Position numbers and translations under genes: made by a program. Below are positions 5,387 through 29,468 of a DNA stretch of 34,326 nt, piece after piece (position 1 is the stretch's first letter; each line of letters begins with the position of its first letter). The stretch spans positions 1 to 34,326 of the forward strand of contig CANFKC010000048.1 of the NCBI GenBank assembly GCA_947447265.1. The letters are read 5' to 3'. A model generated the notes under the pieces. It made no database searches, was not told the DNA's origin, and worked only from the letters and a program-made list of their open reading frames with translations. This stretch comes from Chitinophagaceae bacterium. GTDB taxonomy: Bacteria > Bacteroidota > Bacteroidia > Chitinophagales > Chitinophagaceae.

Positions 5387-7777
5387 TTACAGATCAGAGG
5401 CCATCATTCTGCGATACGCCTTTATGAATATCGCACCCAGGTTTTTATAAGGCGGAACGTAATCAGAAAATTTCTCTTTTTCGGCTGCGTTTACCTTTTT
5501 ATTGAATTCCACTTCTATGCCTCGCCACATGCTTATCCAGTTAGCATCCTGGCCGGCAATAAGCGAATTATTAAGCGATTTCAGTATCTCATCATTTACC
5601 CCCATAGTACCAGTCTGTTTCGATGATACAATATGTGCATCTGGCGATTTATCTAAAACGGCTGCAAGATTATGATAGCCGCCACAAGACCCCAATATCA
5701 CTACTTTCACATGTTTATCAAGGTTCGCGAGCGATACCTGCAAGTGGTAGCTATGCCCCCTGTGTATCATGATGGACGGATAGATGTGGCTGGTAGCAAG
5801 GTAGCTGGTAAGCGAATCGATTGCGTCATCATCTTCTGGCTCAGGCAGGGGCAGATTAGCATAGATTACTATTTTTTTACCGCTCAAAGAAGATATTACG
5901 CTCCAGTATTTTTCGGTAACTATCCTCCATTTTTTGTCTTTCCTGAACTGGTCGGTGAAGTGCTCATAAGAGTGTTTGCCATCTTCGTCGCCGAAGAAAA
6001 ACACCCGCTGGTGAATAATACCAGAATCGCCAACCATATCATTAAACGGGACTTTATTAATGTTATTAAGCCCTAAACGTGCCGACAACAAAAGCGCACC
6101 GGTATCGGTTGTCGCAGTTTTATTACCATCAAAAAGACGCGATAAAAGGCTGTATATAATTACACCCTTCCGGCTTTTTTCTTTGTATGACAGTTCGTAA
6201 TTCTCTTTTACTTTTACCCTGAGAAAGGCAGCAAGGGTACTGTCAGAAATACTGCCAAATGCATCAGCAACATCAACAGCATCTTCCAGATCATATTCAG
6301 CCCCCTTTTGCAGGTTACTGATAAAATTCGCCATCAATGTTGATCTGGCGGTATCATTCATTGTAGCCAGGAATTCAGACAGCGTATTGTAACCCGCACA
6401 CATGCGTATAAAAGTGCGGAAGTGGTCATAGTTCAGACCATCCAACATTTCGTCGCCTTTCAGCGGTTTCATTTTTTCGAGCAAGCGTTTAAATGAGCCC
6501 AGGAAGCTACTGGTATAAATTTCGTCCTGGCCGTAAACCATTACAAAATAAAGTTCGCCCGTCGTCATGCCTTCTATGCATTTGAAACGCTCTGCATCAG
6601 GAGACTCATGCAACTCGTTCATCTTTCTCACATAATTCAGCGAGCGGAGTGCAAGCTCTTTTGAATAAGTACCTCTACCAATTGAATCATTCTCCAACCT
6701 TAATCTTACCAGGTTTTTAAAATACAGATCAGCATCACCGGTTATTTTATCAATCTCGGCAATTGTCTTCCTTCCGCTTATCAGGTCGTTCAGAAATGCC
6801 ATAGCCTTCAGCGGCGATTTAGAGTGATCTGCTATCTTAACTATCGCCTGCACATAAGGGTCAGTACTCCTATGTACAGCATTGGTAAGCGGCGGGTTGG
6901 TTGATGTAGCATAACTATATATCAGGTCCGTTTCCAGGCGGGCATCAAGCGCAACAATTGCGGTAGCAAAAGTATCGTAGGCATATTCCGGCAGGCGGCG
7001 TATCATCATTTTAGGGTCCTTCTTACCCATTTCCGTATAGATATAGGCCCTGAGGTCCTTATAGTTTTCGAATAACACTTTAGAGTTATCAAGCGTGTAG
7101 ACGTTTGTATTTTTAACCGTAAAGCTGGCCAGCTTACCCTCGTTAAACGCCACCAGCATATCGTGCAGGTTTGCGACCAGCTTTTTGTAATACTCCGGCT
7201 TTTTATCGCCGTCATTATTATATGCGCTTAAAAATTTAAACACTGCGTTCAGGCACCGGATTCGCTCCTGGTTATCAGCGAAAGAGTCACGGTCATTTTG
7301 TGGCATGTTTTCTATCATTACCTGCAAAAATGCCCCGTCAACCAGAATTGCCTTTGTAAGCATATCACTTTGTGCAGTGTCCGGGAAAAACCTGATATGG
7401 TTGTCAACAATTCCATCTGCCGCATCAGCGCGCTTCAATTCCTTGTCTATCTTATCTTCATGAAAATACCTTCTCTTAAAAGGCACTTCGTTCATATAAG
7501 TCGTTACTTTGTATGGATCGATTTTAGGGGGAACAACAACAGCAACTGTGTCCTTATTCCTACGCTGAGGCTTAACGACAGGGCTGTCTGTAATTACGAT
7601 TGTATCGGTTTTAATAACATCTACACCCGGAGAATCGGTCCTAATTGTAATAACACGGCTCGTGTCCGTTTTAACAGTATCGGCAGGAAAAACAATTTCG
7701 TGTTTCACTTGCGCACACAACCACTGCGAAAGTGAAAGTAGCATGCAGAGCGATAAAAGAAATTTCAATTTATTCAT
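5387..7777 (-). CDS. Large exported protein of unknown function with a peptidase-like C-terminus
   Basis: A 796-aa protein with a clear signal peptide (cleavage probably after WLCAQ, residue 23), then a Thr/Asp-rich linker (about 30-75) and a long mostly helical region. The C-terminal quarter reads like an alpha/beta fold: a strand IVIYANL, then IHRGHSYH (H672, H675), then VVILGSCGGYHN (C698). A GH motif followed about 23 residues later by a strand ending in a cysteine is the arrangement seen in clan CD (caspase, gingipain, CHAT) peptidases, so this is a candidate. I do not recognise the protein family as a whole. It stands alone between intergenic gaps of about 150 bp. Confidence 0.7.
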   Translation of the reverse strand: MNKLKFLLSLCMLLSLSQWLCAQVKHEIVFPADTVKTDTSRVITIRTDSPGVDVIKTDTIVITDSPVVKPQRRNKDTVAVVVPPKIDPYKVTTYMNEVPFKRRYFHEDKIDKELKRADAADGIVDNHIRFFPDTAQSDMLTKAILVDGAFLQVMIENMPQNDRDSFADNQERIRCLNAVFKFLSAYNNDGDKKPEYYKKLVANLHDMLVAFNEGKLASFTVKNTNVYTLDNSKVLFENYKDLRAYIYTEMGKKDPKMMIRRLPEYAYDTFATAIVALDARLETDLIYSYATSTNPPLTNAVHRSTDPYVQAIVKIADHSKSPLKAMAFLNDLISGRKTIAEIDKITGDADLYFKNLVRLRLENDSIGRGTYSKELALRSLNYVRKMNELHESPDAERFKCIEGMTTGELYFVMVYGQDEIYTSSFLGSFKRLLEKMKPLKGDEMLDGLNYDHFRTFIRMCAGYNTLSEFLATMNDTARSTLMANFISNLQKGAEYDLEDAVDVADAFGSISDSTLAAFLRVKVKENYELSYKEKSRKGVIIYSLLSRLFDGNKTATTDTGALLLSARLGLNNINKVPFNDMVGDSGIIHQRVFFFGDEDGKHSYEHFTDQFRKDKKWRIVTEKYWSVISSLSGKKIVIYANLPLPEPEDDDAIDSLTSYLATSHIYPSIMIHRGHSYHLQVSLANLDKHVKVVILGSCGGYHNLAAVLDKSPDAHIVSSKQTGTMGVNDEILKSLNNSLIAGQDANWISMWRGIEVEFNKKVNAAEKEKFSDYVPPYKNLGAIFIKAYRRMMASDL

Positions 7778-7818
7778 AAAGTACTAATCCTCATCTGGCT
7801 TCCCACATGCTTTAACTA

Positions 7819-7826
7819 CAAATCTA
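7819..7826 (-). promoter_or_regulatory. Candidate Bacteroidota -7 element
   Basis: On the minus strand TAGATTTG fits the TAnnTTTG consensus and lies about 40 bp before the start codon at 7777. A good -33 TTG is not visible at the normal distance, so support is partial. Confidence 0.3.
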
Positions 7827-7933
7827 CCCTTAAAATTGTGAAAGAAAAATGAAATTTAACCCGGAGATGCATTGCGCCGCCAATTGTTTTACACACTTTT
7901 GATTAATTAGCAAGCCACCACAGCTTAACTGCT

Positions 7934-7941
7934 TACATTTG
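7934..7941 (+). promoter_or_regulatory. Candidate Bacteroidota -7 element
   Basis: TACATTTG matches TAnnTTTG and would give a transcript starting near 7948, 25 bp before the ATG at 7972. It argues against the upstream TTG at 7939 as a start codon. No convincing -33 TTG at about 19 bp. Confidence 0.35.
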
Positions 7942-7971
7942 CAACATCAATACAAATATCCCAACAGCATA

Positions 7972-8367
7972 ATGGAATCTGACAATACTAAGCAAAAGTA
8001 CATTCCCGGCGTTTGTAACATCGGCATAAAGGAGTTACGTTCCAGACGCATGGCATCCATTGCCGCAATGCTAGCTGCATTTATAGCTGATGCCATGATA
8101 CGCCATTATTACCCGGGTAACCGGCAAATGGAGTTACTCGTATTTTTACCGCTATGCGCTGCGTTCATAAGTGCCTTGCAGGTGCATTTTAAATTCTGTA
8201 TCGCCTTCGGGCTGATAGGTGTTTTCAGTTTTGACGGTGAGCAACACAAAATAACAGACGACCAGAAAGAATTTCTTAAGGCCGACCGCCAGAAAGCCAT
8301 AAAAATAATCGGACTGGGAATTTTAATGGCTGCTGCAGTAACTGCCGTTTATTATTTCTGGCACTAG
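7972..8367 (+). CDS. Small polytopic membrane protein of unknown function
   Basis: A 131-aa protein from ATG 7972. An extension to TTG 7939 is possible but would overlap the likely promoter. It has a short polar N-terminus with PGVCNIGIKELRSRR, two adjacent membrane segments (about residues 30-70), a charged loop (TDDQKEFLKADRQKA) and a last membrane helix near the C-terminus. The cysteine-containing N-terminal motif looks conserved in character but I cannot name the family. It converges with the nucleoid-associated protein gene with only 16 bp between stop codons. Confidence 0.75.
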   Translation: MESDNTKQKYIPGVCNIGIKELRSRRMASIAAMLAAFIADAMIRHYYPGNRQMELLVFLPLCAAFISALQVHFKFCIAFGLIGVFSFDGEQHKITDDQKEFLKADRQKAIKIIGLGILMAAAVTAVYYFWH

Positions 8368-8383
8368 CCCACTCCTTGTTCCT

Positions 8384-9433
8384 TTAAGACTCTTCGTCGA
8401 AGTATATTTTGTAATAGCTTTTGCCCGTTGCATCGTCATAACCACGCTCAATAAGGCTTTTATCTCCGTGAATATAAACGTGGAAATTATGATCGAGCTT
8501 AAGTACGCTCTTAAATACCTTAGCCTGCTTTTTTACCGCTTGTAGCGAAATGCCAAATTTATCGGGTATATCTACATCGTTATTTTCAGAATAAGTATCA
8601 CCAAAATTCCGGAAAGAATCAATAAGCTCTTTATCGTAAAGCACTTCTTTTTCAAACTTTTCCTTCTCGAACATCTCATTGCCCTTAAAGTACTCCACAG
8701 ATCTGTTAAGCAGGTCTATCTGGTCAGTCTTTTCCATCTCAAACTCCTGCGGAACCTGTTTTGCAATAAATTGCTTGGTAAGTGTAAGAAACTGGTTCGT
8801 CTGGAAATATTCATTGGCCTGTGGCGCTACGCTTAAAAACGTTTCCCTCCAGAATACAGCTTCTGTACCTTTTGTCGCATTATCGGCAATCAGCACATCA
8901 AAGCCTTGCTCCCCTTTTGTAGGGAATACCAGGCAACCTTTATCGAACTTCGACACTTCCACCCCCTCACGCAACACCATATTAAATTCCTTGCCGTCTA
9001 TCGAAAGATCAAGAAAATTGCTTTTAGTTTCTGTTTTAAAAATACCGATACCTTCCACATAGGCACCATCAACAACACAGTTTCCATAATGACAAACATA
9101 GAGTTCTCCCTCTTTTATTTGCGGGTGCTCCGTGCTTTCAAAAAGGTGTTTGGCTATATTAATGGAGTTCTGGTGAAAAGTTGTCTCATCCGTAAATATC
9201 TCCAGACAAAAGTTATAAACTTCGTTATAATTTAATGATGACAGGTGGTGAAACGAATACATGCTCATCTGGTCAGTAAACCGACTGAGAAATGGCGCAG
9301 TTATCTTCTCTTTATCCTTCTGAGCAAGTTCCAACGGAGCTTTAGATAGCACAAGTTCGCCACCCGTACCCTTGTTACCCACAAAATGCACTGACATATT
9401 CAGTAAGTTGCTATCACTAAGGTCCATCGCCAT
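8384..9433 (-). CDS. Nucleoid-associated protein (NdpA/YejK family)
   Basis: A 349-aa protein matching the NA37/NdpA family in length and layout: an N-terminal region with NLLNMSVHFVGNKGTGGELVLS, a central region with EVYNFCLEIF and KHLFEST, and a C-terminal domain with YFDEES at the end. E. coli YejK is a nucleoid-associated protein; the function in Bacteroidota is not well defined. Cytoplasmic, no signal peptide. A TATTTTTG hexamer-like -7 element on the minus strand at 9451-9458 could drive it. Confidence 0.85.
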   Translation of the reverse strand: MAMDLSDSNLLNMSVHFVGNKGTGGELVLSKAPLELAQKDKEKITAPFLSRFTDQMSMYSFHHLSSLNYNEVYNFCLEIFTDETTFHQNSINIAKHLFESTEHPQIKEGELYVCHYGNCVVDGAYVEGIGIFKTETKSNFLDLSIDGKEFNMVLREGVEVSKFDKGCLVFPTKGEQGFDVLIADNATKGTEAVFWRETFLSVAPQANEYFQTNQFLTLTKQFIAKQVPQEFEMEKTDQIDLLNRSVEYFKGNEMFEKEKFEKEVLYDKELIDSFRNFGDTYSENNDVDIPDKFGISLQAVKKQAKVFKSVLKLDHNFHVYIHGDKSLIERGYDDATGKSYYKIYFDEES

Positions 9434-26269: not shown

Positions 26270-26711
26270 CTTTAGCTGTATTATTGTAGATGACGAACCA
26301 AAAGCCATAGAACTATTAAAGGATTGTATTAATTACTTATTCCCCAATCTCGATGTAATTGGTTCCTATACATCCTGGACTGTAGCGCTGCCCGCTCTGC
26401 GAACTACGGAGTGCGACATTCTTTTCCTTGACGTTTCGATGCCAGGTAAAACGGGATTGGATCTGCTTACGCTGCTTCCCGATCTGGAAACAGAGATTAT
26501 ATTCGTTACGGCACATTCCGAGCATGCAATGAGTGCATTTAAATTTGCTCCGTCGGGATACATATTAAAGCCAATTGACGATACGCAACTCACTCAGGCT
26601 GTTAAAAAGAGTATGGAGCGGTCGCAACTTAAGAAAGCTGCAAAAAACACTCCCCCAACATCGTCCTCGCAAAAAATAGCGGATTATATACAACTTGGGA
26701 CTAAGGGGTAA
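26259..26711 (+). CDS. LytTR response regulator, 5' part (receiver), disrupted by IS1595-family element
   Basis: The first 140 codons encode a complete receiver domain: the acidic pair D11/D12, phosphoacceptor D58 (LFLDVSM), T at VTAHSE and KPID. From 26679 the reading frame enters the transposon end and reads ADYIQLGTKG before a stop, so the product is a receiver with a 10-residue foreign tail. The original continues at 29145. Joining 26678 to 29145 gives a single 247-codon LytTR regulator (SSSQKI / GIPNNKGTDY). The gene overlaps the kinase by 11 bp, so receiver and kinase are still co-translated. DNA binding is lost from this polypeptide. Confidence 0.95.
   Translation: MKNNFSCIIVDDEPKAIELLKDCINYLFPNLDVIGSYTSWTVALPALRTTECDILFLDVSMPGKTGLDLLTLLPDLETEIIFVTAHSEHAMSAFKFAPSGYILKPIDDTQLTQAVKKSMERSQLKKAAKNTPPTSSSQKIADYIQLGTKG
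26671..26678. repeat. Target-site duplication, left copy (AAAAAATA)
   Basis: The 8 bp next to the left inverted repeat are identical to 29137-29144 next to the right inverted repeat. Eight-base AT-rich duplications are typical of IS1595-family insertion. Confidence 0.95.
26679..26702 (+). repeat. Left terminal inverted repeat
   Basis: 24 bp starting GCGGATTATATACAAC and ending GGGACT, the exact reverse complement of 29113-29136. It is read as coding sequence at the end of the truncated regulator. Confidence 0.95.
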
Positions 26712-26714
26712 AAC

Positions 26715-26746
26715 AAATAAGCTACTCGTAATTGAGTAGCTTATTT
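26715..26746. terminator. Hairpin terminator at the left end of the element
   Basis: 13-bp perfect stem (AAATAAGCTACTC and its complement) with a 6-nt loop, between the truncated regulator stop (26711) and the stop of the secreted passenger protein (26757). It can serve both convergent genes and would insulate the element from host transcription. Confidence 0.8.
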
Positions 26747-26756
26747 TCAGATATTT

Positions 26757-27158
26757 TTATTCGCCAAATAATTCATCAGAGGTTTTCCAATCGGGTACAT
26801 CTGCATATTCTACCATCTTATCGTTTATCTCCTTTTTAACCATAGTTGCGGTATAAGTAGACTTTTTACTCGTTGATAACCGCCAGTCGTGTTTTGATGA
26901 TCTATTCATATTGCTCATACAACCACTATTCTTTACATCAGAACTTACAAACATCATAGTTCGTTGCGATTGCTCCTCTAAGGAGTTTTTTATTTTCACA
27001 TTTTTGACCGTTTTGATATTCGGAAGAGTAGGTAAAGTGAACGTTTTTTTGCAATAGAAGCACTCGTAGGTGCTTCTAACGAATTGCACTTTTTCTGTTT
27101 GCGCATTTACCTGAAAATAGGTGCTAATTAAAACTACTATTAGAATTATTTTTCTCAT
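26757..27158 (-). CDS. Passenger gene: secreted CxxC protein of unknown function
   Basis: A 133-aa protein with a signal peptide (cleavage probably after VNAQ, residue 20), then YECFYCKKTFTLP (a CxxC pair near residues 33-36), a third cysteine at KNSGCMS, and a charged C-terminus. CxxC followed by a basic, aromatic stretch suggests a small zinc-binding or redox motif outside the cytoplasm. I do not recognise the family. It lies wholly inside the transposon, with the structured segment 27242-27480 upstream of its start. Confidence 0.75.
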   Translation of the reverse strand: MRKIILIVVLISTYFQVNAQTEKVQFVRSTYECFYCKKTFTLPTLPNIKTVKNVKIKNSLEEQSQRTMMFVSSDVKNSGCMSNMNRSSKHDWRLSTSKKSTYTATMVKKEINDKMVEYADVPDWKTSDELFGE

Positions 27159-27241
27159 GTTTTTAGTTTAAGTGATTAATAAATTGGCTTTCGTTTATTA
27201 TCACTCGTACCGGTGGTGACTTATTCCTTCGGAAACTCGTT

Positions 27242-27480
27242 AGAGTATTCATTTTCTGACAGTTTGCTATGTCAGAGGTTCCTATGACTTGTGTAAAATA
27301 ATCAGGGGCGTGAACCTCAGAGCTACACATTCAAGTCCAAAGGAACCGCCAAGTCCCACTAATCCTGAACAAATAGATGAAGCCACACCCCTTTGAGGGT
27401 GCGTCTTGCATCTTTCTCGGATTAGTCGTTTTAAAATTGGCGGTTTTATGGACTGTCAGAAAGATAGCTAACGCTACTCT
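27242..27480. ncRNA. Candidate large structured RNA (orientation unresolved)
   Basis: No open reading frame, but a dense set of nested helices, found by reading. Helices: 27242-27247 with 27475-27480 (6 bp); 27253-27263 with 27452-27462 (11 bp); 27344-27352 with 27437-27445 (9 bp); 27358-27365 with 27419-27426 (8 bp); 27375-27382 with 27405-27413 (8 bp, one bulge); 27386-27390 with 27397-27401 (5 bp hairpin). An H-type pseudoknot forms from 27275-27281 with 27312-27318 and 27286-27295 with 27324-27337 (10 bp, 4-nt bulge). All listed pairs are Watson-Crick, so strand cannot be told. It could be a free RNA, or the leader of the 78-aa gene (plus) or of the 133-aa gene (minus). Not a riboswitch class I recognise. 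Confidence 0.6.
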
Positions 27481-27633
27481 TTTAAATATCAATATTTTAT
27501 GTTCTTCCTTTTCTCTAAACCATTCGAAACTTTTGTTTAATTAGGCGATAAAAGTAACATAAATCATTCGATTTTCTCTGATAGCAATCAACTAAACTGC
27601 TGTCAGAATAACGTTAAAAAATTAAAACTAAAA

Positions 27634-27870
27634 ATGGATCAAAAAATGGAAGACCGGATTTACCAGCTGATTGAATCGTGGGAAAAATTCCTGGAAAAGG
27701 ATGGATTAACTTGTTGGGGAATTGCAATCCGATATTATGATTATAAAATTGAGGAGGCACAAAGTAACCGGTCAAGAATATTTAAGTATATAGAATTATT
27801 GAAAGACGAAGGTAGAATTTTTTCACATTTTGATTTTAATGGTGACATTCGATATAATACGCATCAATAA
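27634..27870 (+). CDS. Passenger gene: 78-aa protein of unknown function
   Basis: A small acidic/basic mixed protein with a helical N-terminus (MEDRIYQLIESWEKFLEKDG), then GIAIRYYDYKIEEAQ and a final beta-like FSHFDFNGDIRY. The composition looks like a real soluble protein. The start is preceded by an A-rich leader typical of this phylum. It is the only gene on the plus strand of the element and ends 14 bp before the 3' end of the tRNA-like gene on the other strand. A small DNA- or RNA-binding regulator is possible but unsupported. Confidence 0.65.
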   Translation: MDQKMEDRIYQLIESWEKFLEKDGLTCWGIAIRYYDYKIEEAQSNRSRIFKYIELLKDEGRIFSHFDFNGDIRYNTHQ

Positions 27871-27883
27871 TATAAATATTTAG

Positions 27884-27957
27884 TAACCCCGACTGGATTT
27901 GAACCAGTAACCTACCCTTCGGCAAAAGGTTGCTCTGTCCAGTTGAGCTACGAGGTC
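27884..27957 (-). tRNA. tRNA-like gene, anticodon GCC (Gly codons), arginine-like body
   Basis: 74 nt fold as a full cloverleaf. Acceptor GACCTCG / CGGGGTT (7 pairs, two of them G-U), discriminator A. D-arm GCTC / GAGC with GG and A20 in the loop. Anticodon stem ACCTT / AGGGT with loop TTGCCGA, so anticodon GCC. Five-nt variable loop; T-arm ACTGG / CCAGT with loop TTCAAAT. No CCA is encoded. The acceptor start and D-loop A20 look like bacterial arginine tRNAs, while the anticodon reads glycine codons, and G37 is unusual for glycine. It lies 24 bp after the transposase stop on the same strand, inside the transposon. Confidence 0.8.
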
Positions 27958-27979
27958 AGGAGATAATTTCTCCTGACCT
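27953..27979. other. Hairpin overlapping the 5' end of the tRNA-like gene
   Basis: An 11-bp perfect stem (AGGTCAGGAGA with its complement) and 5-nt loop lie between the transposase stop and the tRNA. On the minus-strand transcript the 3' arm includes the first five bases of the tRNA acceptor (GACCT). It may end the transposase transcript or compete with tRNA folding in a joint transcript. Confidence 0.7.
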
Positions 27980-27981
27980 TC

Positions 27982-28935
27982 TTATTGCAATTCAGATTTT
28001 ACTTTCAAGGTTACAGCAACTTTATTTTTACCCGTTAAAGTTTTGTATGTTAAACGGCCATCCAACCTGCCCATTAATTTTTCGAACCTCTCTGGGTCTT
28101 TGATTTTACGAGTGTTGTACCGGTAACTAAATTCATGGCAATATCGTTGGAGGTGCTTAGGACTCATACGGATGTAAATGCCATACATACCTCGCCTTAG
28201 TTGTGAAAATGCTCCCTCTATACCATTTGTATGGTATATGCCACGAACATACTCACCTTCGCTATGCTTAACAACCTCATGTCCTGCAAACTCTTTAGAT
28301 AAACCGGAATAGGATTTGTGCCCGTCAGTATTGATAACTGCTGTGGTACTTACCAACTCACGAATAATAGGTTTAAGCGTATCAGCTTCTGTATTCTCTA
28401 CTACTTTATAGGTAACATTACCGCCTCTTTCAAGCACGCCAAATACTGGAACTTTATTTACTGCACCTCTACCAGCTTTTAATTTGTCGTCATCTTTTTT
28501 GTGTCTGTCCTGTCCTCCGTGGTAAACTTCATCTGCTTCTACCATTCCAGTAAATAGTGGGTGTTCTTCTTCAAACATTTTACGGATTCGATGACCTAAG
28601 AACCAAGCAGATTTCTGTGTGACACCTATATCTTTACCGAGCTGTATAGAAGAAATTCCAGCTTTGTGACCGGCGAGTACGTAAATTGCCATTAGCCAAC
28701 TGGAGAGAGGAATATTGCTATTTTCCATTACAGTACCGACAGTAACGGAGTACTTCTTTTTGCAGTCACCACATTTATAACGGGGCGGTGTGATTTTGTA
28801 CCACTTTTGTGATGAGCAGTGCGGGCATGTTGGTATGCCTTCCCAACGATGTGCTTCTAAAAATTCCCGTGCTACTTCTTCAGTGGCGAAATATTGAATT
28901 ACCTCTTTTAAACTCTTAAAACCTGTAAGCTTCAT
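27982..28935 (-). CDS. IS1595-family transposase
   Basis: A 317-aa transposase. N-terminal zinc ribbon with C37, C40, C55, C58 (CPHC and CGDC). DDE-type (ISXO2-like) catalytic domain with VEADEVYHG (D135), NTDGHKSYSG (D204) and YHTNGIEGAFSQLRRG (N237, E240), followed by the typical SPKHLQRYCHEFSYRYNTRK. Where many relatives have LKR after the N/E motif, this one has LRR, so the last catalytic lysine appears to be arginine. Full length, no frameshift, so the element may be active. It would cut at the 24-bp inverted repeats and create 8-bp duplications. Confidence 0.97.
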   Translation of the reverse strand: MKLTGFKSLKEVIQYFATEEVAREFLEAHRWEGIPTCPHCSSQKWYKITPPRYKCGDCKKKYSVTVGTVMENSNIPLSSWLMAIYVLAGHKAGISSIQLGKDIGVTQKSAWFLGHRIRKMFEEEHPLFTGMVEADEVYHGGQDRHKKDDDKLKAGRGAVNKVPVFGVLERGGNVTYKVVENTEADTLKPIIRELVSTTAVINTDGHKSYSGLSKEFAGHEVVKHSEGEYVRGIYHTNGIEGAFSQLRRGMYGIYIRMSPKHLQRYCHEFSYRYNTRKIKDPERFEKLMGRLDGRLTYKTLTGKNKVAVTLKVKSELQ

Positions 28936-29096
28936 TTCCTGTTTCTTATACCGCTAATGTATAGTCGTTATGCTCTGGTTCTTTGATAATTTCCGTTAGA
29001 GTTGCTATAGGAAAACGTCAGAGTTTTGGTGACTTTACATAGGGTATATTACAGTAATGGTATTTGATTTCAGACAAGAATATATAATATGAAAAA

Positions 29097-29117
29097 GGAC
29101 TGATGCTTAGTCAGTCC
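29097..29117. other. Subterminal hairpin at the right end of the element
   Basis: GGACTGA (29097-29103) pairs with TCAGTCC (29111-29117) across 7 nt, overlapping the inner edge of the right inverted repeat and covering the ATG at 29103. It could hinder read-through or translation from the element into the LytTR remnant. Confidence 0.5.
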
Positions 29118-29468
29118 CAAGTTGTATATAATCCGCAAAAAATAGGTATACCTAATAATAAAGGCACTGATTATCTCAGCACTGAAGAAATCATATACCT
29201 GGAGTCGGTAAATGGCTGCACCAAAGTGGTGACAATACATGGCGATATTACCAGCTCTTATAATTTAGGTAGGTTTAAAATTGTTATGGAGAAATATAAT
29301 TTCTTCCAGGTTCACAGATCCTTCATTATTAACCTGAACCATATCAGACGATATAATACCGATGGAGAAATATTGCTTAGCAATGGACAGGAAATTCCGA
29401 TCTCGCGGAATGTGCGCGATGAGTTCCTGCTTAAGTTCAATAAGGTGTCGAAAACAGACATTTTATAG
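29103..29468 (+). CDS. LytTR response regulator, 3' part (DNA-binding domain), disrupted
   Basis: From 29145 the sequence is the host gene: 107 residues of LytTR DNA-binding domain (YLSTEEIIYLESVNGCTKVV, FQVHRSFIINLNHIRRY, ILLSNGQEIPISRNVRDEF). Upstream of that, the frame stays open through the transposon's right inverted repeat to an ATG at 29103 inside the element, so a 121-aa free-standing LytTR protein with 14 foreign residues could be made. Without its receiver it could not be controlled by the kinase. Expression is doubtful, since the ATG lies in a hairpin. Confidence 0.9.
   Translation: MLSQSQVVYNPQKIGIPNNKGTDYLSTEEIIYLESVNGCTKVVTIHGDITSSYNLGRFKIVMEKYNFFQVHRSFIINLNHIRRYNTDGEILLSNGQEIPISRNVRDEFLLKFNKVSKTDIL
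29113..29136 (-). repeat. Right terminal inverted repeat
   Basis: 24 bp, exact reverse complement of 26679-26702. The bases inward of the two ends are related but offset by 4 nt (CTTAGTC). Confidence 0.95.
29137..29144. repeat. Target-site duplication, right copy (AAAAAATA)
   Basis: Same 8 bp as 26671-26678. Deleting the element and one copy rejoins the LytTR regulator in frame. Confidence 0.95.

Follow-up and report, generated by a model that had tools for sequence, protein, structure and literature searches.

The window, by which we mean the whole stretch of 34,326 nucleotides of a Chitinophagaceae genome analyzed here, very likely carries on its minus strand a member of a family of cis-acting leader RNAs, and we regard this RNA as probably a portable, riboswitch-like transcription attenuator for the gene behind it. 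Both statements draw on the same data, namely sequence comparisons and the folds predicted from them.

The minus-strand RNA and its carrier element

The segment 27242-27480, in which the sequence-only reading had seen a large RNA-like fold, folds beyond chance on both strands (z of -5.11 for the plus and -5.15 for the minus strand; 0 of 200 shuffles were as good), and is thus unlike shuffled sequence in folding energy; as that reading also held, it contains no open reading frame (ORF) of at least 70 aa. The plus strand implied by its coordinates had to be given up, as the promoter box, the gene orientation and the balance of G-U against A-C pairs all favor the minus strand. G-U exceeded A-C on the RNA strand by 214:67 and 93:20, a balance that the reference row's own G-U pairs favor. 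By reading, 31 of 33 contexts (4 from the DNA search and 29 from R1) have an ORF opposite to the strand of model R1 (see below) that starts no further than ~400 nt from the RNA; L051 and L052 are the exceptions, and L052 is cut by a contig edge. This shows that the RNA lies on the other strand, which is the minus strand of the window. That the element acts at the DNA level, as a folded single strand or a site of recombination or replication, is hardly credible to us: both strands fold well and copies sit on mobile DNA, but the G-U excess on the proposed strand, the strand-specific promoter box and the single direction of the genes all speak for an RNA.

As described here, the RNA runs from ~27476 down to 27271 on the minus strand, within the limits first proposed but shorter than them. 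Model R2 (see below) matched the window at 27297-27471 (minus strand) with 57.2 bits and an E value of 1.3e-9, and the window copy is one of the divergent members of the family (57 bits vs up to 149). The parts of the RNA are as follows, in 5' to 3' order.

27271-27476, minus strand: whole leader RNA, from P0 to the 3' pseudoknot strand (R2 match plus hand mapping of the outer parts)
27465-27476, minus strand: P0, 5' hairpin UAGCGUUAGCUA
27458-27465, minus strand: PK1 5' strand AUCUUUCU, 8 bp perfect with 27410-27417, covarying
27446-27453, minus strand: P1 5' strand, ending in a conserved A-rich junction
27437-27444, minus strand: P2 5' strand ACCGCCAA
27419-27427, minus strand: P3 5' strand
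27410-27417, minus strand: PK1 3' strand AGAAAGAU, between P3 and P4
27397-27412, minus strand: strand A (5' side of P4/P5), partner X; A:X duplex -17.4 kcal/mol
27376-27391, minus strand: strand X GGGGUGUGGCUUCAUC (3' side of P5/P4), partner A or B
27358-27365, minus strand: P3 3' strand
27345-27352, minus strand: P2 3' strand UUGGCGGU
27335-27341, minus strand: P1 3' strand, after a conserved CCU
27305-27319, minus strand: strand B UGAGGUUCACGCCCC, partner X (terminator-like) or C
27295-27304, minus strand: U-rich tract UGAUUAUUUU directly 3' of B, weaker than that of most relatives
27285-27288 with 27271-27274, minus strand: GUCA with UGAC across C, the 3' pseudoknot (read from the alignment)
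27275-27282, minus strand: strand C GGAACCUC, alternative partner of B

Two pseudoknots are conserved, namely PK1 (27458-27465 with 27410-27417) and the 3' one, in which B pairs with C together with GUCA/UGAC. Read by alignment, the latter forms with GUCA/UGAC in the window and L003 and with GCCA/UGGC in L004 and L005, and has one mismatch in L002. The P0 segment folds better than its shuffles (median z of -1.75 in 110 sequences sampled from 210 family members). AA before P2 and CCU after P2 are among the seven invariant columns of alignment A7. This alignment did not draw on the P2 pattern; it puts P3 and PK1 in the wrong place, and nothing but its invariant columns was used. The A-rich/CCU core between P1 and P2 is putatively the likeliest binding core. 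An 11-bp perfect inverted repeat (TTTCTGACAGT at 27253-27263 and ACTGTCAGAAA at 27452-27462) flanks most of the segment. It was not seen by eye in the sister loci L037 and L038, and thus is probably not part of the conserved fold.

The RNA was rightly placed inside an IS1595-family transposon, as borne out by the transposase, the terminal inverted repeats (TIRs) and the target duplication, and the tRNA-like gene beside it is a tRNA-Gly(gcc).

26679-29136, no strand assigned: IS1595-family element, TIRs 26679-26702 and 29113-29136
27982-28935, minus strand: IS1595 transposase (DDE_Tnp_IS1595 plus zinc ribbon, by domain matches)
27883-27957, minus strand: passenger tRNA-Gly(gcc), inside the element
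26757-27158, minus strand: 133-aa secreted protein with CxxC, gene 3' of the RNA

The two 24-bp TIRs are identical and both flanks carry the 8-bp target duplication aaaaaata; together with the DDE_Tnp_IS1595 transposase, these features assign the carrier to the IS1595 family. Its insertion split a response-regulator gene, of which the LytTR-like part seems by eye to resume beyond the element. Among the four ORFs around the RNA, Pfam recognized the IS1595 transposase and the response regulator only; no IscB/TnpB-type nuclease gene of the kind that accompanies omega/HEARO-type RNAs was thus found to adjoin the RNA. The 133-aa secreted protein had no Pfam match, showed 27% identity to the protein at the same place in L002 (E value of 3e-6 in a single comparison), and had no counterpart listed in L037 or L038 by tblastn at E values up to 1. 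Its gene starts ~110 nt behind the RNA and should be the one that the RNA controls.

IS1595-type transposases adjoin the RNA in L002 and L003 as well. In L037, the L002 element is present in full (6056-8672), with a transposase of 90% identity and aaatttaa as its duplication, and this sister element carries the RNA followed by a protein related to the window's secreted protein; the presence of the RNA and a related gene in both elements indicates that the two travel with the element. In L003/L038, the transposase is 65% identical, and the window's terminal repeat was not found. ARAGORN detected no tRNA in L002 or L003, and no transposase ORF was recognized within the 3 kb of L004 or L005. The source genome has other IS1595-type transposase matches, and G000:C47:27732-28694 was matched in two pieces.

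The recurrent transposase, in a complete element in L002/L037 and again in L003/L038, would suit an RNA for transposition control or a ribozyme of the element, both proposed in the sequence-only reading. We consider this highly improbable, as many relatives stand ahead of genes for SusC/SusD, sigma factors, response regulators, methylases and RibD_C/DHFR-like proteins, and the source genome holds a single R2 copy despite its other IS1595-type transposase matches. Because many relatives precede unrelated genes in chromosomes, conjugative-type plasmid records and viral contigs, transposon-centered readings are unsupported. Among the interpretations offered at that stage, the regulatory leader of a passenger gene is the one that fits.

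Relatives and their distribution

Six of 296 related genomes, the source genome among them, were matched in a DNA search. The source genome and four loci (L002, L003, L004 and L005) aligned over the RNA and were used; L006 (G182), which matches only window positions 27572-27635 outside the RNA, was left out. Model R1, built on the plus strand from these five loci, had matches in 27 of 395 genomes from the window's phylum, counting the source genome. A minus-strand DNA pattern of the P2 region was found in at least 118 stretches of named genomes, 56 of which, with no window sequence among them, were used to build model R2. R2 matched 110 of the 118 stretches (56 by construction) and had no match in L079, L099, L105, L123, L124, L161, L178 and L186. 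All 33 relatives of the R1 stage were found again by R2 on the opposite strand, R2 having been built without them; the segment is thus kept in relatives, as the earlier reading had required.

With stricter filters that lose weak matches, and with the center genome counted in each tally of matches, the phylum-wide R2 scans detected the RNA in 64 of 395 genomes of the window's phylum (Bacteroidota), 48 of 194 of the phylum of a Limisphaerales MAG, and 4 of 198 of the phylum of Desulfonema magnum, where one match is weak (E value of 4.5e-4). None of 299 genomes of the phylum of Bartonella matched under the same filters, a scan that serves as a false-positive check only. R2 also matched 34 of 99 near relatives and 8 of 13 viral stretches. 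The RNA is present in many genomes of Bacteroidota and Verrucomicrobiota, for example in Flavobacterium, Chryseobacterium and Bacteroides. As the complete chromosome of Desulfonema magnum holds two R2 matches, MAGs are not the sole evidence that the RNA occurs beyond Bacteroidota. A genome holds up to 7 copies among the 395, 11 in Bacteroides xylanisolvens XB1A, 16 in a Lentisphaerae MAG and one in the window's source genome. Some stretches carry two copies ~0.8-6.3 kb apart, on the same strand in L135 and on opposite strands in L130 and L117. In L157:1-3133, assigned to a Pelotomaculum MAG, the RNA is accompanied by a gene clustering with RibD_C/DHFR-like genes of Bacteroidales, and this contig is probably a contamination of the MAG.

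A large pseudoknotted leader RNA without an Rfam family thus occurs in about one-sixth of the sampled genomes of the window's phylum and about one-fourth of those of the Limisphaerales MAG's phylum, ahead of genes for surface proteins, regulators and mobile elements. With Rfam 15, neither the window (27240-27520) nor a Flavobacterium relative (L074, 6860-7110) gave a match to the RNA at E values up to 10, and at the gathering score the window and 20 other loci gave tRNAs only; the sub-threshold matches lie outside the RNA, the two that are not tRNAs being in the IS1595 element. No Rfam 15 family thus matches the RNA, in line with the first impression from the sequence. In the literature, exclusive of supplementary motif tables, we recognized no description of it; the RNA appears to be a family without an Rfam entry, possibly one already listed in such supplements. 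Weinberg 2010 (PMC2864571) names motifs of the same phylum as the window RNA, namely 6S-flavo, Bacteroid-trp, Bacteroidales-1, Bacteroides-1, Bacteroides-2, Flavo-1 and GUCCY-hairpin. Those with Rfam numbers there did not match the RNA in our scans; Bacteroides-2 and GUCCY-hairpin carry no such number and stand outside this comparison. Bacteroidetes candidates are also mentioned in PMC8040213.

Covariation and competing strands

Covariation among relatives, the check proposed at the outset, is strong. In A9, a plain, unfitted MAFFT alignment of 56 relatives, 34 of the 39 pairs of the main fold vary on both sides (29.4 in shuffles; 0 of 500 reached 34), 82.3% of cells are paired vs 65.7% when shuffled, and the covariation score is 0.471 vs 0.199 (0 of 500). 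When the structure was slid along the alignment, the score was at most 0.137 and the signal was lost. P1 by itself is paired in 94.5% of cells, with 7 of 7 pairs varying on both sides. The X:B pairing, which is in neither R1 nor R2, is paired in 94.0% of cells in its first helix (7 of 7 pairs varying on both sides); X:B as a whole scored 0.316 vs 0.226 in shuffles (0 of 500), and 13 of its 15 pairs vary on both sides, a count reached by 24 of 500 shuffles.

When partner strands were exchanged among 110 sequences, the native partners proved by far the better binders, with duplex-energy z values of -15.5 for PK1, -29.5 for A:X and -19.8 for X:B, all inflated by relatedness, vs -0.8 for the same-sequence control A:B and a mild background for PK5':B (-2.9) and PK5':X (-2.6). 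A second exchange among 54 sequences, 33 of which were found without the DNA pattern, gave -16.4 for X:B, -13.6 for A:X and -11.7 for PK1, with controls of -1.3 (A:B) and -0.1 (PK5':B). For B:C, in 110 sequences sampled from 210, z was -11.2, and the control pairing B with a stretch further downstream gave -0.0. P1 was left out of these results owing to pairs without any duplex (standard deviation of 90). As A:X and X:B occupy the same X columns (95-101), they are mutually exclusive. In the window, X:B reaches -23.2 kcal/mol with flanking bases included. Nested minimum-energy folding of the full leader yields X:B in only 19 of 213, with A:X winning, so that X:B needs strand invasion or a pseudoknot.

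The succession of A:X, X:B and B:C with a U-tract right after B is, as far as sequence can tell, the anatomy of an attenuator. Directly after B, at least 6 U in 8 nt occur in 186 of 213 RNAs vs 16.5% of control windows, and X is predicted to be common to A and B ahead of this tract, as is required of a riboswitch. We propose that the nascent RNA would fold P0, PK1 and the stacked P1-P5 first, with X held by A. Strand B, once transcribed, may displace A from X, and the GC-rich X:B followed immediately by the U-tract would form a putative intrinsic terminator. A signal, ligand or protein, that holds PK1 and the A-rich/CCU core would let A:X persist and the polymerase read through, after which B may be captured by C; the 5' structured part would decide whether A keeps X. 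Since the signal would keep A:X and permit read-through, it would switch the gene on. In the window, this would place the secreted-protein gene of the IS1595 element under the leader's control. Should the switch be real, compensatory mutations in the conserved switching strands would offer a direct test of the mechanism.

Several findings count against attenuation. The distance from X to B, ~56 nt in the window, is long for the loop of an intrinsic terminator, and nested folds form X:B in the 19 of 213 cases only. The window copy has a weak U-tract and one mismatch in its -7 box (TACTTTTA at 27556). Strand C comes after the U-tract, so that termination at the tract cannot be averted by B:C itself. 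Attenuation is put no higher than probable because of the low share of nested X:B, the long X-to-B distance and a termination step that we infer.

The same strands may serve a cis-acting leader without termination, in which the 3' part (B:C with GUCA/UGAC), near the start codon, acts on translation or on the stability of the mRNA, with X:B as one of the helices in a pseudoknotted fold. Consistent with this are the covariation of B:C (z of -11.2), a median of 79.5 nt from RNA end to gene start, the weak U-tract of the window, and a topology in which X:B may coexist with P1-P3 as a pseudoknot. We rate this account as unlikely, as the U-tract after B is strongly kept (186 of 213) and the use of the same X by A:X and X:B points to a switch.

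Promoter, downstream genes and known systems

TAnnTTTG is a -7 box (PMC7366714, PMC9723704). Of 212 RNAs, 152 have it upstream on their own strand and 14 on the opposite one, while 5 of 124 genes have it between the RNA and the gene start. Counting ORFs of at least 75 aa within 600 nt by crude ORF calls, the nearest downstream ORF of 231 distinct RNAs is co-oriented in 168, opposed in 25 and absent or cut by a contig edge in 38; the nearest upstream ORF is on the same strand in 84, on the opposite strand in 116 and absent or at an edge in 31. This count supersedes an earlier one of 94 of the 118 stretches (60 same-strand, 12 opposite, 22 none). The RNA is thus a conserved, structured 5' leader of co-oriented genes, as riboswitches are; the 25 opposed ORFs count against an attenuator.

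An own -7 box (152 of 212), a terminator-like 3' end, mutually unrelated downstream genes and up to 16 copies per genome would befit an independent small RNA, equipped with a promoter and a terminator of its own, that acts in trans and lies upstream of genes only incidentally. This is quite doubtful, more so than a leader without termination, as ORFs are co-oriented downstream (168 vs 25) but not upstream (84 vs 116), and 119 of 124 genes lack TAnnTTTG between the RNA and their start.

The 167 downstream genes form 86 unrelated clusters, which sets the RNA apart from ordinary metabolite riboswitches and counts against the attenuator. By domain matches and by eye, the largest clusters comprise 21 SusC-type receptors, 13 RibD_C/DHFR-like proteins, 11 response regulators, 10 members of a family of unknown function and 8 sigma factors. 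RteC, Tae4, colicin immunity, HicA, HEPN and type III methylase were each matched by a single cluster representative, and three representatives carry a T9SS sorting domain. Among the families listed for the 86 representatives (best 25 per search), none was of IscB/TnpB type. A defense-gene theme was rejected: methylases accounted for 21 of the best 25 of 33 PADLOC families, each with one cluster representative, and no clear theme emerged.

As the genes served are so varied, the signal sensed by the proposed attenuator is probably general; a real switch of this kind may place many unrelated accessory genes under a single signal. Tentatively, and with considerably less conviction than for attenuation itself, we advance the joint reading of a portable switch of at least two phyla, borne on mobile DNA, that would gate acquired accessory genes (those for surface proteins, sigma factors, response regulators and methylases, toxin/immunity-like genes and genes of conjugative elements). 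Its cue would then be one general signal, or a factor acting in trans (a NusG paralog or Rho, for example), and not the metabolite of a pathway.

Ribosome-dependent attenuators of the trp type proceed through successive pairings 1:2, 2:3 and 3:4, which A:X, X:B and B:C resemble; in contrast to them, the RNA shows no sign of a leader peptide, has its U-tract after strand 3 and not 4, and possesses an elaborate pseudoknot core. ATG ORFs of at least 10 codons occur inside 93 of 213 leaders vs 67.7% in shuffles. The frame of the GTG in X stays open as far as the U-tract in 53 of 129. Those of the window, L002 and L005 are open and resemble one another, which may be put down to the similarity of their DNA. 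Bacteroides capsule-locus leaders are served by UpxY, a NusG paralog, and likewise exert control inside a 5' untranslated region of Bacteroidota. To our knowledge, these leaders have no common RNA fold. No upxY-like gene was recognized by eye behind the 11 copies of B. xylanisolvens, and a link of UpxY/NusG to the RNA is speculation. Riboswitches with terminator platforms share with the RNA a 5' leader, a pseudoknotted core, exclusive helices, a U-tract and a co-oriented gene; here, by contrast, there is no matching Rfam family, and the genes served are unrelated and suggest no single pathway. A further difference is that family-wide covariation extends to the switching strands of this RNA; with diverse expression platforms, covariation is difficult to use (PMC13273304).

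In plasmid records of Bacteroides and Parabacteroides, the RNA has on one side a primase/helicase gene, or a short HTH gene that follows the latter, and on the other a gene of the DHFR family; an RteC gene is nearby. L043, L044, L046, L050, L053, L063, L064 and L068 stand ahead of a SusC-SusD pair, after which comes a third gene of ~855-903 aa; behind this lies an opposed gene of 90-94 aa in five of the eight loci and of 129 aa in L043. Several of the SusC-SusD loci have, by eye, an extra hairpin between the RNA and susC.
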